Part shown: positions 36,672 through 45,005 of the stretch, piece by piece
How the letters are laid out: every line of letters begins with the position of its first letter
Numbering within the stretch: position 1 is the stretch's first letter
NCBI RefSeq assembly: GCF_017254845.1
Contig: NZ_JAFKCU010000002.1
Span: forward strand, 1,167,956-1,231,955
DNA: 64,000 nucleotides
Direction of reading: 5' to 3'
From: Algoriphagus pacificus
GTDB lineage: Bacteria > Bacteroidota > Bacteroidia > Cytophagales > Cyclobacteriaceae
Made by a program: the position numbers and the translations under genes
The notes under the pieces: model-generated
Seen by the model: the letters and a program-made list of their open reading frames with translations, nothing else
The model's database searches: none
What the model was told of the DNA's origin: nothing

Positions 36672-36699
36672 TAGCCCCGATAGTTTCGGGGCTTTTTTT
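36672..36699 (+). terminator. Terminator after the GIN-domain gene
   Basis: AGCCCCGA / TCGGGGCT hairpin with a 4-base loop and a seven-T run. It separates this gene from the unusual two-gene unit that follows. Confidence 0.92.
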
Positions 36700-36902: not shown

Positions 36903-38945
36903 ATGGGAAGTCTTACCGTAACCCAATTAAAGTCCATCCAAAATGGCAACAGCTTAAAATCAAAAGTAACTGCGATGCAAGCCGCAAGGTTTGATCGAAA
37001 AAACATCGCACAAGTTCTAAAAGCTTCTGAAGAAACGAGTGAATCAGATCTGGTTTTAACTTCAAAAGCTATTCTTTTGAGAAGTCAAAATGGTGACTTT
37101 GAAGAAGGATTTGAACTAGCAACTTGGTCTGTCAAAGCAAAACCGGCCTCCAGAAAAGTAGTGGTAAAGAGTTTTTTGCAAAACAAACAAGCTCCTTTGT
37201 TAGTGCATCACATGGCTCGGATGAAGCGAGCGGATGCAAAGAATTTGATGAAAGATTATTTTTCTGAAGGAGGTAACATCAAGGATATTGCAGAATGGCT
37301 TAGTGTGGCGGGAAATATATTGAAAACAGGAGTTGTGCCCGATGAAACAGACGGATTATGGGGTTGGGTCAAAGATGCAGTGGGTACTGTGGTCGATGCG
37401 GTTGTTGGTGCAATTAATACTGTGGCGGATGCGATAAAAGAAGCTGGAAAGAATCTAGCAGAGGCAATTTCAGCTGTGGTTTCTTGGACCCAAAGTAAAA
37501 TCAATGATTTTGTAGAGGCGATAATTCGGGCGGGCAAATCCGTCATTCAAATTATGAATGAAGCAGTGAAAAAGGGAACTGCGGCAATTCAAAAATTTAT
37601 TCAGGCAGTCATAGAAGCTGGCAAAAAGGGAATTGAAATCCTTAATTGGGCCATTTCTCAAGCTGAAGCCATTTTAAAAACTGCTTTGACAAAATTAGAG
37701 CAATTGTTAGGCTCATTTACTTCTTTATTGTTTGAGATAGCTAAAATGGCTACTTCTAGAATTTTTGCAGTTGTAAAAGCTCTTTTGAGTGCAGGAAAGT
37801 CTGTTCTTGATTTCGTTTCAAGGCTGGATAGAATTTCTTACAGTATTGCAAAGCAAATTGTTCAGGAAATAAAGAGAGTGGGAAGATCGATTCGTGAAAT
37901 CATGAATGCAGTCATTAACCGATCAAGATACATTGCTAGAGTGGTTTTGGATGCTTTGAAATCTTTGGGTAATTCTATCAGGACAATTTTGGCCGAAGTA
38001 GTTAATAAGACGATCAATCAGCTTTCTGTTATAATTGGCGCTTTAAAAGATCTAGCAATTTCACTTGCCCAGATTTTAGATGAGATAGCCAAGTTTACTT
38101 TGGCACAAGCTAAAAAGCTAATGATGGCATTAAGAATTATCTGGACTCAGGTAAAAGAGATTTTGGAGTTTATAGCAAGAAAGACTGAGTCTGTGATCAG
38201 AACATTAATGGCTGCATTTATTGGCACATTGATTCACATCAAAGAAGTGGTCAGAACAATTGTTGAAGATGTCAGAGCTGCATTTAGAGAAGGCCTGATC
38301 AAAGGTCTAATTCAAATTGGGAAATCAGCAGTAACCTTGATGGTAGAAGCTTTAAAAATAAGCGCTTCTGTAGCCGCTGTTTTATTTGCGATTTTGATGG
38401 ATGTTTTTGGTTCTCATAGAGGCCTGAATGCCAAAGAGAGAGCAGAAGCAGAAAAAGTCTTCGGAATTTCAATTGATTTGGATCAGGTTCAACTGACTAC
38501 TGCAAGTTTTCCTGCAGACTTTATCATGTGGCTAAATAAAAACCGTCCATTTACCACGATGTATGTGATCAATTATAAGTCAGGTACAACGCTGCCAATG
38601 GATACCTTGATCCATGAACTTGTTCATGTTTGGCAGGCTGTGAATTCTGGAGGAGTATATATGTTAGAAGCCTTGCATTCACAATTCTTTGGTAAAGGAT
38701 ATAATCTTTCGGAAGCAGATATCAGAAATGCCAATGGAAAGCTTTTGAATTTGGAAAGAGAACAACAGGCAGTTTTGGTGGAAGATTATTGGAAAGCTAA
38801 ATTCAATGGCGAAAGAATTCCAATTGCTTTGGACCTAATTGAACCTCTTGCAAAACAAGTTTATAAGGCTAAGTTTAAGTTTGGAACGTTTACCTTGAAA
38901 GATTTGGAATTTGTCACAAGACCGACATTGGTATTAAGTAATTAA
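36903..38945 (+). CDS. 29-residue helical repeat protein with C-terminal DUF4157-like HEXXH domain
   Basis: A 680-residue protein with no signal peptide. Residues 1-145 are a helical N-terminal domain of no known family. Residues about 150-500 are amphipathic helix. A glycine or its replacement recurs at 182, 211, 240, 269, 298, 327, 356, 385, 414, 443 and 473, a 29-residue period with cores such as AIIRAGKSVIQIMNEAV, EIKRVGRSIREIMNAVI and ALKSLGNSIRTILAEVV. There is no proline from about residue 147 to 536. Residues about 505-645 hold FGISIDLDQVQL, LIHELVHVWQAVNSG (H571-E572, H575) and EREQQAVLVEDYW. This matches my memory of zinc-peptidase-like DUF4157-related domains linked to contractile injection systems. 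It is followed by a caspase-like gene after 9 bases. The role is unknown; a toxin, membrane-active or scaffold function are inferences. Confidence 0.85.
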   Translation: MGSLTVTQLKSIQNGNSLKSKVTAMQAARFDRKNIAQVLKASEETSESDLVLTSKAILLRSQNGDFEEGFELATWSVKAKPASRKVVVKSFLQNKQAPLLVHHMARMKRADAKNLMKDYFSEGGNIKDIAEWLSVAGNILKTGVVPDETDGLWGWVKDAVGTVVDAVVGAINTVADAIKEAGKNLAEAISAVVSWTQSKINDFVEAIIRAGKSVIQIMNEAVKKGTAAIQKFIQAVIEAGKKGIEILNWAISQAEAILKTALTKLEQLLGSFTSLLFEIAKMATSRIFAVVKALLSAGKSVLDFVSRLDRISYSIAKQIVQEIKRVGRSIREIMNAVINRSRYIARVVLDALKSLGNSIRTILAEVVNKTINQLSVIIGALKDLAISLAQILDEIAKFTLAQAKKLMMALRIIWTQVKEILEFIARKTESVIRTLMAAFIGTLIHIKEVVRTIVEDVRAAFREGLIKGLIQIGKSAVTLMVEALKISASVAAVLFAILMDVFGSHRGLNAKERAEAEKVFGISIDLDQVQLTTASFPADFIMWLNKNRPFTTMYVINYKSGTTLPMDTLIHELVHVWQAVNSGGVYMLEALHSQFFGKGYNLSEADIRNANGKLLNLEREQQAVLVEDYWKAKFNGERIPIALDLIEPLAKQVYKAKFKFGTFTLKDLEFVTRPTLVLSN

Positions 38946-38954
38946 TAAGTCTAT

Positions 38955-39839
38955 ATGAACTATGCGATCATCATCCCTGAATCATGGCTTGATGACTTAA
39001 TGAAAAGTAAAGCTGGATGGATCAATTTTCCATCCAGCTGTTTTTTTATCTATCATCAAGAATTAGATCTTACTAGGCTTAAAGCGAACCCTTCCATCAA
39101 ACTGCAGCTTTCAGAAAATAATATAGCAGCAGTTTTATGGATCTTGCCTAGAAAATTTTCTGACAAAAAACATCAAAAAAAGTGGCCTAAATTGATTCAG
39201 AAAAGTAAATCCCAGGTCTTTGTCAATTCTTTAATTTTTGCTGATTCATGGAATGATTGCTCTATACTATTTGAACAATATTTTAATTCAGTTGATAAAT
39301 ACTATAACCGGACCTCAGTAAGTTGCCAGTATGAACCAGCATATACTACGTTGCTAGGCGACTGGGATAAATCTGGAGCTTTATCCTTTCATCCGGGGGA
39401 CTTTTTTAAAGAAGAGTTTTTAGAAGAAATAAAGAGAATGTCAGGTAACTGGGTTTATTTTGGTCATGGAGAAGGTGATCGCTTAAGGGGGTATGGACAT
39501 TTGGAAAAACTTGAATTATTACAGAATGGACCATCGAAACCGCTTAACTCCACTCTGTGGTTTACCTGCTCAACCCTCCAAGAAAAAAAAGGATCTAGTC
39601 TTGCTTTTAGTTGGTTCAGCGAAAACAACACTTTTTGCTTATTAGCCAGTGCCCATAAAGTTAAAACTGTTGAAAATCAGGCAATTTCTAGTTCCTGGTT
39701 AGATGTGATTCTAAATGAGAAGGAATTGACAATTGCCGATATTCTTTTGAAAATTTACTCGAAAGCCCCAGACTTTTTCAGTCCAATTTTAAACCAATAC
39801 CAACTATTGGGATTTCCATGGGTGAAAATGGGAATCTAA
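38955..39839 (+). CDS. Caspase-like (C25 gingipain/CHAT-type, clan CD) cysteine protease candidate
   Basis: A 294-residue protein without signal peptide. The C-terminal half looks like a clan CD protease core. NWVYFGHGEGDRLRGYGHL supplies the catalytic His (H171) at the end of a strand, and STLWFTCSTLQEKKGSSLA supplies the Cys (C205) after the next strand. FCLLASAHKVKTVENQAI and LTIADILLKIYSKAPDFF then resemble the post-cysteine part of C25/CHAT domains. The N-terminal 130 residues are probably a degenerate half-domain. The His-Cys pair is seen directly; the family call is by resemblance. It lies 9 bases after the helical HEXXH gene, and an intrinsic terminator is embedded in its codons 19-31. 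Confidence 0.7.
   Translation: MNYAIIIPESWLDDLMKSKAGWINFPSSCFFIYHQELDLTRLKANPSIKLQLSENNIAAVLWILPRKFSDKKHQKKWPKLIQKSKSQVFVNSLIFADSWNDCSILFEQYFNSVDKYYNRTSVSCQYEPAYTTLLGDWDKSGALSFHPGDFFKEEFLEEIKRMSGNWVYFGHGEGDRLRGYGHLEKLELLQNGPSKPLNSTLWFTCSTLQEKKGSSLAFSWFSENNTFCLLASAHKVKTVENQAISSSWLDVILNEKELTIADILLKIYSKAPDFFSPILNQYQLLGFPWVKMGI
39011..39047 (+). terminator. Intrinsic terminator inside the 5' end of the caspase-like gene
   Basis: AGCTGGATGG (39011-39020), 9-base loop, CCATCCAGCT (39030-39039), then G and seven Ts. It is a perfect 10-bp stem plus U tract located in codons 19-31 of a reading frame. It would attenuate transcription from the upstream gene. Confidence 0.8.
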
Positions 39840-43790: not shown

Positions 43791-45005
43791 TCATTTAAGA
43801 CTTTCTAAGACCAACCGAACCAATTCATTTTTATCTCCATTTGGAATCCATCTTGCAACGATGACCAGTTCATTTTCCTGATCCACATAGATCATGTTGG
43901 TGCCTGCACCTATATGAGCAAAAGCAGTTTTAGGAGCTGCAGGGATAAATTCCTGATCGTTATTTAGAAAATAATTCATAAAACCATAGCCCGGATTTGC
44001 AGGGGTTGGAGTTTTCGATTTTTCAATCCAAGACTTTGGAATCAGCTGCTCCCCATTCCAATTCCCATCATTTAATGTCAAATAACCGAACCTGGCCTGA
44101 TCCCAGGCAGATAGCATCATGCCGCCTCCCCAATGTGAACCTCCGGATACAGATTGCACAATCTGCCCATCAATGATCACAAAGGAATTCTCATAGCCTG
44201 TCCATCTCCAAGTATCACTTGCTCCGATTGGATCCATGATTTTAGATTTTAAAACAACAGGCAGCGGTTTTCTCCAAACATTCATCAAAGCCAAAGCGAG
44301 CACATTCACTCGAGTATCATTGTATTCGTAAACAGAACCTGGAGCATTTTGAGGTCTGGCTCTTTTCTCTTTGGCACCTTCTCTTGGCCTGTCAGCCCAA
44401 TCTGGCTTTCCCCATAGAGAACCTTCCCAGTCAGAAGTCTGTCTCAAGAGATGATTCCAAGTGATCGTGCGATTATGCTCTGTATCAAAAAGCTCAAAAG
44501 TATCCTCGTCTTCAAAATGATCAGCTTTGTTGATTATTAATTTTGCTGGCTCATAAGGATAAATAGGAGCCATGTATGGATAAACCAAATCCTTTTCTGA
44601 GTTGATTAAGCCTTCTTGAACAGCTAATCCCGCAGTGGTGGAAAGAAAACTTTTGGCTACAGAAAAAGTCAAATCAACCCGATTAGGATCTCCCCATTGT
44701 CCGACCACATATCCTTTGTAGATAATTAATCCTGTGGCGGCACCTCTGATTTTCATTGGGCCTATAGGGTATCCAAAGGGCTCTCTTCCAAAACCACCTT
44801 CGTAATGCGCAATTTTCAGGTTAGGATCCTCTTGACTTTCATGTGAGATAGCATAATCAATTGCTTCCTGGATTTTTGCTTGATTTAGTCCAAGAGACTC
44901 AGGGCTTTTGCTTTCCCATTTGTTCTTTTCAGGGAAATAAGTTTGCGCAGAGATTCCTTGAATTCCTGCCATTAGAAGGCAAAGACCTAGGTATATTTTT
45001 TTCAT
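43791..45005 (-). CDS. Serine hydrolase of the class C beta-lactamase family, exported
   Basis: A 404-residue protein with a signal peptide (IYLGLCLLMAGIQGISAQ). The catalytic SxxK is S-V-A-K in LTFSVAKSFLSTT, the tyrosine motif is in VYEYNDTRVN, and the third motif region is AHIGAGTNMIYVD in place of KTG. Family members include esterases, D-aminopeptidases and carboxypeptidases; actual beta-lactamase activity is not implied. It is monocistronic and divergent from the flavoprotein gene. Confidence 0.9.
   Translation of the reverse strand: MKKIYLGLCLLMAGIQGISAQTYFPEKNKWESKSPESLGLNQAKIQEAIDYAISHESQEDPNLKIAHYEGGFGREPFGYPIGPMKIRGAATGLIIYKGYVVGQWGDPNRVDLTFSVAKSFLSTTAGLAVQEGLINSEKDLVYPYMAPIYPYEPAKLIINKADHFEDEDTFELFDTEHNRTITWNHLLRQTSDWEGSLWGKPDWADRPREGAKEKRARPQNAPGSVYEYNDTRVNVLALALMNVWRKPLPVVLKSKIMDPIGASDTWRWTGYENSFVIIDGQIVQSVSGGSHWGGGMMLSAWDQARFGYLTLNDGNWNGEQLIPKSWIEKSKTPTPANPGYGFMNYFLNNDQEFIPAAPKTAFAHIGAGTNMIYVDQENELVIVARWIPNGDKNELVRLVLESLK

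Follow-up and report, generated by a model that had tools for sequence, protein, structure and literature searches.

What is gained when a gene for a zinc peptidase on a long helical repeat protein is followed at once by a gene for a protease of an unrelated clan? This arrangement was found in a 64,000-nucleotide stretch of the genome of the marine bacterium Algoriphagus pacificus (5.28 Mb; assembly GCF_017254845.1, contig NZ_JAFKCU010000002.1, positions 1,167,956 to 1,231,955), which is called the window below and whose numbering is used here. As a first-pass annotation of the window had described, two open reading frames (ORFs) are present with a spacer of 9 bases, and they encode proteins of 680 residues (P1) and 294 residues (P2). 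I found that their adjacency is far beyond chance. The two genes may constitute a dedicated two-protease module in which P2 switches P1, a reading whose probability I place a little below even. The significance of the locus lies in two unrelated peptidase clans standing side by side over several phyla, and in their being joined to a set of acyl carrier protein (ACP) and ketoacyl synthase (KS) genes in 11 of 28 loci, an extension that could not be seen from the window alone.

Conservation and host range of the pair

Is the pair found in other bacteria? One genome per species was scanned with the P1 peptidase domain; at least 237 relatives were confirmed, and the best 80 of these were kept. A P2 homologue lies directly 3′ of P1 in 28 of the 80. 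The distance from the P1 stop to the P2 start is -26 to +12 bases in 27 of the 28 paired loci (P2 starts more than 30 bases upstream of the P1 stop being left out of consideration) and +146 in the other one (L027). Among the 52 kept relatives without P2, the contig ends 251 bases after P1 in L035 and 740 bases after it in L061, and the P1 start is cut in L036 and L080. Searches led by P2 found a standalone P2 in 17 genomes, the source genome included, and a P1 domain adjoins it in all 17, a count that leaves out three weak P2 matches (one at a second site in G408, the others in G369 and G130). A deeper P2 profile gave 13 other matches; the open frames around them measure 720-1327 codons, are PorU-like by size, and have no P1 within about 1.5 kb; the loci of P2-led matches cover about 1.5 kb on each side, so that a more distant P1 beside the PorU-like ones would escape. 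Since the 28 paired P1 relatives come from several phyla and every counted standalone P2 lies beside P1, the adjacency cannot be put down to chance, and the adjacency and order that the first-pass annotation had proposed as a test are kept. That two unrelated enzymes are neighbours by accident has a negligible probability, as the adjacency is seen from both the P1 side and the P2 side, across phyla, with the order conserved in unrelated hosts.

Judged by record titles, the hosts include Algoriphagus, Flavobacteriaceae, Bacteroidales, Verrucomicrobiota, Acidobacteriota, Geobacter, Cellulomonas, Geodermatophilaceae, Pseudomonadales, and Thiodiazotropha, several of them being metagenome-assembled genomes (MAGs). 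The phyla are intermixed on the P2 tree, which suggests horizontal spread, although the key forks are weakly supported. Searches with few queries, and thus weak as negatives, found no relatives of the P1 domain alignment or of one P2 (L042) on viral contigs, none of the P1 peptidase domain in phages, and none of one P2 (L043) on plasmids. A fusion of P1 and P2 was considered and rejected: where the P2 ORF is long, as in Cellulomonas (L043 and L045) and others, the added upstream part is out of frame.

P1 is predicted to carry a zinc peptidase on helical repeats

From its sequence and predicted model, P1 appears to be an alpha-helical repeat protein of preferred length with a C-terminal zinc peptidase of the VgrG2b type. 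Its N-terminal helical domain was found by profile search in all 28 paired relatives and in none of the 52 unpaired ones, the N-terminal-domain and P2 profiles both being built from paired members and biased toward the paired kind. One unpaired relative (L041) matches the repeat end of the N-terminal profile only, and 42 of the 52 unpaired relatives are shorter than 340 residues. Over 29 P1 proteins, 491 repeats of 29 residues were detected, against 0.01 per protein in a shuffled control, and 17 of the 29 proteins carry 19-21 repeats. A hydrophobic segment like that preceding the peptidase domain of the window P1 lies 85-110 residues upstream of HEXXH in 21 of 29 P1s, among their top three in hydrophobicity.

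A peptidase fold was found for residues 487-651 of P1, as it was for P2, so the structural comparison that had been called for favors both enzymes. The comparison structure for P1 is the C-terminal metallopeptidase of VgrG2b (PDB 6h56), and the features of such a gluzincin, HEXXH and a distal Glu ligand, are present in all 25 aligned P1s (the window and 24 of the 28 paired loci; the four omitted keep HE..H). In VgrG2b, H935 and E983 are 48 residues apart (excerpts of PMC6899460). The zinc-binding motif noted at the outset as the end of the protein is real, but 105 residues come after it. P1 also departs from VgrG2b in that its peptidase sits on a repeat array and not on a VgrG spike, and that the gene 3′ of it encodes a protease and not a small immunity ORF, as far as the excerpts of PMC6899460 describe VgrG2b. 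Neither a carrier nor a cluster of the VgrG2b kind, belonging to a type VI secretion system, is found at the window, where the closest neighbor genes of the pair are DUF4097, BD-FAE, and DUF3500 (Pfam), and no VgrG or PAAR carrier domain was found in P1 with Pfam. Pfam gave P1 no family at cut-off, with weak matches to helical families only. In PADLOC-DB 2.0.0, the helical part weakly matches ZorA (20.2 bits, residues 314-410), which is likely compositional.

P2 resembles gingipains

P2 is predicted to be a minimal gingipain-type cysteine protease with its His/Cys pair intact. In alignment, the caspase-like H171 and C205 proposed earlier fall into the GHG and Cys columns of gingipain R and PorU, which contain the catalytic residues of those enzymes. 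Both are invariant in 28 of 28 aligned P2s (the window and 27 of the 28 paired loci; in L027, which was omitted, GHG and a Cys can be seen by eye). The predicted model of P2 matches the gingipain fold; the comparison set consisted of gingipains R and K of family C25 (PDB 4ief, 1cvr, and 4rbm) and PorU (6za2). P2 is closer to the gingipains (C25), one of the clan CD families suggested before (C25, CHAT, metacaspase-like), than to the metacaspases. Unlike the gingipains, P2 is a bare domain with about 10% identity, and it scores 18.4 bits against PF01364, below the gathering cut-off of 23. At E ≤0.1, PF01364 matches 22 of 28 P2 members, with a best value of 2.8e-12. P2 has no match in PADLOC-DB 2.0.0, and neither P1 nor P2 gets a name from the NCBIfam and PADLOC models.

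Within the P2 coding sequence (39011-39039), 56 bases past its first base, there is a hairpin of 11 perfect pairs with GTTTTTTT after it. It could hold P2 expression below that of P1. The P2 protein of relatives differs at this region.

The five-gene form

In the 11 loci mentioned above, genes for an ACP, a KS, and a second KS (KS′) directly follow P2; Lacinutrix himadriensis and Cellulomonas are among the cultured hosts. The ACP has about 80 residues, with a DSL motif in the 10 that were read. Of 10 junctions examined, 7 show a 4-base overlap between the P2 stop and the ACP start. Both His motifs of the KS are present in all seven examined (of 11; Pfam was run on three), the Cys motif was found by pattern in six, and by eye the seventh has its Cys within a variant motif. 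KS′ is short and degenerate, and no active-Cys motif was seen by eye in 6 of 11. The other 17 of the 28 loci have no ACP or KS genes directly after P2, and the 64-kb window, to which this search was limited without the rest of the source genome, has no ACP or KS match at E ≤0.01. All eleven five-gene loci fall on one side of a branch of the P2 tree, with a support of only 44/18, and the five-gene form requires three changes on the P1 tree. When ORFs of at least 100 residues were clustered over the 28 loci, no further family occurred in more than six; no acyltransferase was recognized near the pairs, few of whose neighbors are annotated.

The set resembles the KS/chain-length-factor/ACP sets of type II polyketide synthases. 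The KS of L042 matches FabF and cispentacin AmcF models and its ACP matches ACP models, all of these matches being under the NCBIfam cut-offs. In contrast to the polyketide synthase and cispentacin AmcF and AmcB sets, the second KS is a short half and the set is linked to two proteases; it is absent from the window. In a Holophagaceae MAG (L031:9722-10942, minus strand), the opposite strand carries, just past P2, a KS gene together with an ACP-like ORF.

The pair within Algoriphagus

The P2 gene was found in 9 of 73 genomes of the genus, and the pair occupies more than one genomic site. The window pair lies about 4 kb from a 404-residue gene (43791-45005), a relative of which is directly upstream of the pair in L021, L022, and L128. 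Within the genus, P1 identity is 66-94% and P2 is less conserved; between L021 and L022, identity is 94% for P1 and 53% for P2. The records L020 and L021, both titled Algoriphagus aquimarinus, have the pair at different sites, with 82% identity for P1 and 48% for P2, and thus they may be separate species. Two MAGs labeled Bacteroidales (L025) and Limnobacter (L026) have Algoriphagus-type pairs, with P1s 63% and 59% identical to that of the window. Either transfer or mis-binning would account for them. The L026 locus and its P1 and P2 have a GC content of 0.52-0.53.

How might the two proteases work together?

In the reading that I prefer, P1 and P2 would both be produced in the cytosol, and the P1 repeats would act as a scaffold by which the zinc peptidase is held or positioned. 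P2 would be the switch; it would cut P1, or a shared target on P1, and so release or silence the zinc peptidase. The analogy is with CHAT and separase proteases, which work beside helical-repeat partners. Separase and Craspase are cases in which a repeat protein is paired with a clan CD protease, and if P2 switches P1, the pair would be their bacterial counterpart. Unlike in separase, SAVED-CHAT, and TPR-CHAT (Craspase), the repeat partner is here a protein of its own, P1, and has a zinc peptidase itself. In the five-gene form, the dedicated ACP and KS pair would probably provide an acyl group, either to modify P1 or to gate the switch. From the sporadic distribution, a role in conflict or stress seems more likely than one in housekeeping. 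P2 may cleave P1, or the pair may be an effector or defense module, as the first-pass annotation had supposed.

Several results weigh against P2 as a switch of P1. In the remaining 12 of the 29 P1s, 7-11 or 26 repeats were detected, so the length of P1 is not constant everywhere, and the predicted local distance difference test (pLDDT) value of the P1 model is below 50 over residues 356-503. No conserved cut site specific to P2 was recognized in P1. Arg506 was tried as such a site and rejected; it is invariant ahead of the peptidase domain, yet it is also found in five P2-less relatives read by eye (L006-L010). The nonsynonymous divergence (dN) of P2 is 2.4 to 11 times that of P1 in 10 Algoriphagus comparisons, and such fast divergence would be expected of an antidote or recognition protein but is not required of an enzyme-substrate pair. 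A modification or biosynthetic system would account for the fatty-acid genes equally well.

The locus might serve protein or peptide maturation, in which the ACP and KSs build an acyl chain, and P2 and P1 cut and couple this chain to a protein. PorU, which belongs to C25 like P2, is a transpeptidase. The 11 loci with ACP, KS, and KS′ directly after P2, the 4-base overlap of P2 with ACP, and the largely intact KS motifs speak for this explanation, which I consider unlikely; the 17 loci and the window without these genes directly after P2, together with the lack of a further common ORF family or a recognized acyltransferase, speak against it. For Algoriphagus it would have to be assumed that the proteolytic half alone was kept or that acyl carriers are borrowed from elsewhere. 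Rather less probable is a toxin with an enzymatic antidote, the VgrG2b-type domain of P1 being the toxin and P2 an immunity protease that destroys P1. A small immunity ORF lies downstream of genes of the VgrG2b metallopeptidase family (excerpts of PMC6899460), and at this locus its position is taken by P2. P2 also outpaces both P1 and its flanks in Algoriphagus: between L021 and L022, dN is 0.389 for P2, 0.034 for P1, and 0.054-0.064 for three flanking genes. Against the antidote stand the enzyme dyad kept in every aligned P2 and the five-gene operons, in which P2 does not always diverge faster (P2/P1 dN ratios of 0.8 to 1.7 in four comparisons, with 0.8 for L051 against L058). No positive selection is claimed, because most of the dN comparisons are close to saturation at synonymous sites.

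It was also assessed whether P1 is an effector of a contractile injection system (CIS) and a relative of Tme and other tape-measure-type effectors, since a DUF4157-like domain and a link to such systems had been suggested from the sequence. PHROGs tape-measure profiles match the helical part of P1 (best E 1.7e-10), and a PDB search matched gp57. But when this part was reversed, it still matched tape-measure families, several of them the same (best E 3e-8), and designed helical proteins were matched as well; the matches were therefore rejected as a sign that P1 descends from tape-measure proteins. Sheath-like genes occur in 17 of 24 Algoriphagus genomes searched, the source genome included, whose sole sheath match lies on another contig than the pair. 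A sheath profile (E ≤0.001) matches in 18 of 30 paired genomes against 12 of 18 unpaired ones, so that CIS linkage as a requirement was rejected, with absences being weak because many genomes are drafts or MAGs. P1 recalls the Tme and Sle effectors, in which a long helical protein is tied to a DUF4157-type domain. In those effectors, however, DUF4157 stands at the N-terminus or on a partner protein, and the genes are part of CIS clusters (excerpts of PMC11126660 and PMC13277306); neither is true of the window. The P1 peptidase domain is C-terminal, and Pfam DUF4157 gave no match to P1 up to E 10. The suggested link was not borne out, and a CIS effector is quite improbable.

Is the two-protease operon a new system? 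A search of open-licence literature, a scope that leaves out most subscription papers and all bioRxiv preprints, found none that pairs these proteases, with or without ACP and KS. The first-pass annotation, which knew of no described system with this pair, agrees with these papers and with NCBIfam and PADLOC, though an earlier description elsewhere is possible. In what could be searched, the operon combination is new, and each fold is already known. A bolder and improbable proposal is a new, horizontally spread machine, in which a ruler of 29-residue repeats, of preferred length and with a zinc peptidase, is governed by a gingipain-type switch and in its complete form is fed by ACP and KS, the acyl group being attached to or sensed by the switch. 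If true, this would unite lipid-type chemistry and two-step proteolysis in one operon.

Features of the locus and neighboring genes

The features are collected in Table 1. The unit is isolated, as had been claimed: the terminator-like hairpin marks the boundary between the upstream DUF4097 gene and the pair, and the gene 3′ of P2 (39846-40688) is convergent to it. The GC content of the window P2 is 0.359, below that of 20 other sampled ORFs (0.368-0.416), P2 being AT-richer; that of P1 (0.381) is inside their range.

Table 1. Features of the P1/P2 locus, in window coordinates
Feature	Position	Strand	Remarks
Terminator-like hairpin	36673-36693	+	8 pairs, 6 G-C, then T run; consensus match only
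P1	36903-38945	+	680 aa; helical N-terminal domain, 29-residue repeats, predicted C-terminal zinc-peptidase domain
P1 N-terminal helical domain (residues 1-142)	36903-37328	+	pLDDT block means 79-95
P1 29-residue helical repeat array (residues 168-487)	37404-38363	+	10/11 slots above score threshold; autocorrelation
Hydrophobic segment preceding peptidase domain (residues 484-502)	38352-38408	+	mean hydropathy 2.04 across 19 residues
P1 zinc-peptidase domain, VgrG2b type (predicted)	38409-38942	+	
HELVH zinc-binding motif (residues 571-575)	38613-38627	+	H571, E572, H575 invariant in 25 aligned P1s
E620 codon, probable third zinc ligand	38760-38762	+	49 residues past H571; invariant in 25
P2	38955-39839	+	294 aa; predicted gingipain-type (C25) cysteine protease
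His171 codon, predicted catalytic	39465-39467	+	alignment with GHG column of gingipain R and PorU
Cys205 codon, predicted catalytic	39567-39569	+	alignment with Cys column of gingipain R and PorU

Other genes were seen near P1 relatives. A gene for an LGFP-repeat protein on the same strand ends 16 bases upstream of P1 in an Acidobacteriota locus (L028:3626-5563) and 30 bases upstream of it in a Verrucomicrobiota locus (L030:3909-5504). In a Geobacter MAG (L029:9458-12034, minus strand), the gene past P2 combines cyclic nucleotide (cNMP)-binding, sigma-54 activator, and 4Fe-4S domains. In Psychrobacter (L091, L093, L095 from 8448 onward, and L064), the P1 peptidase domain has short relatives that stand alone and are followed by a gene of 328-338 residues, which has no Pfam match in the two checked (L064 and L095); these are possibly effector and immunity genes. 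Several Saprospiraceae relatives sit before a gene of about 315 residues, which is CorA in the one checked (L057).
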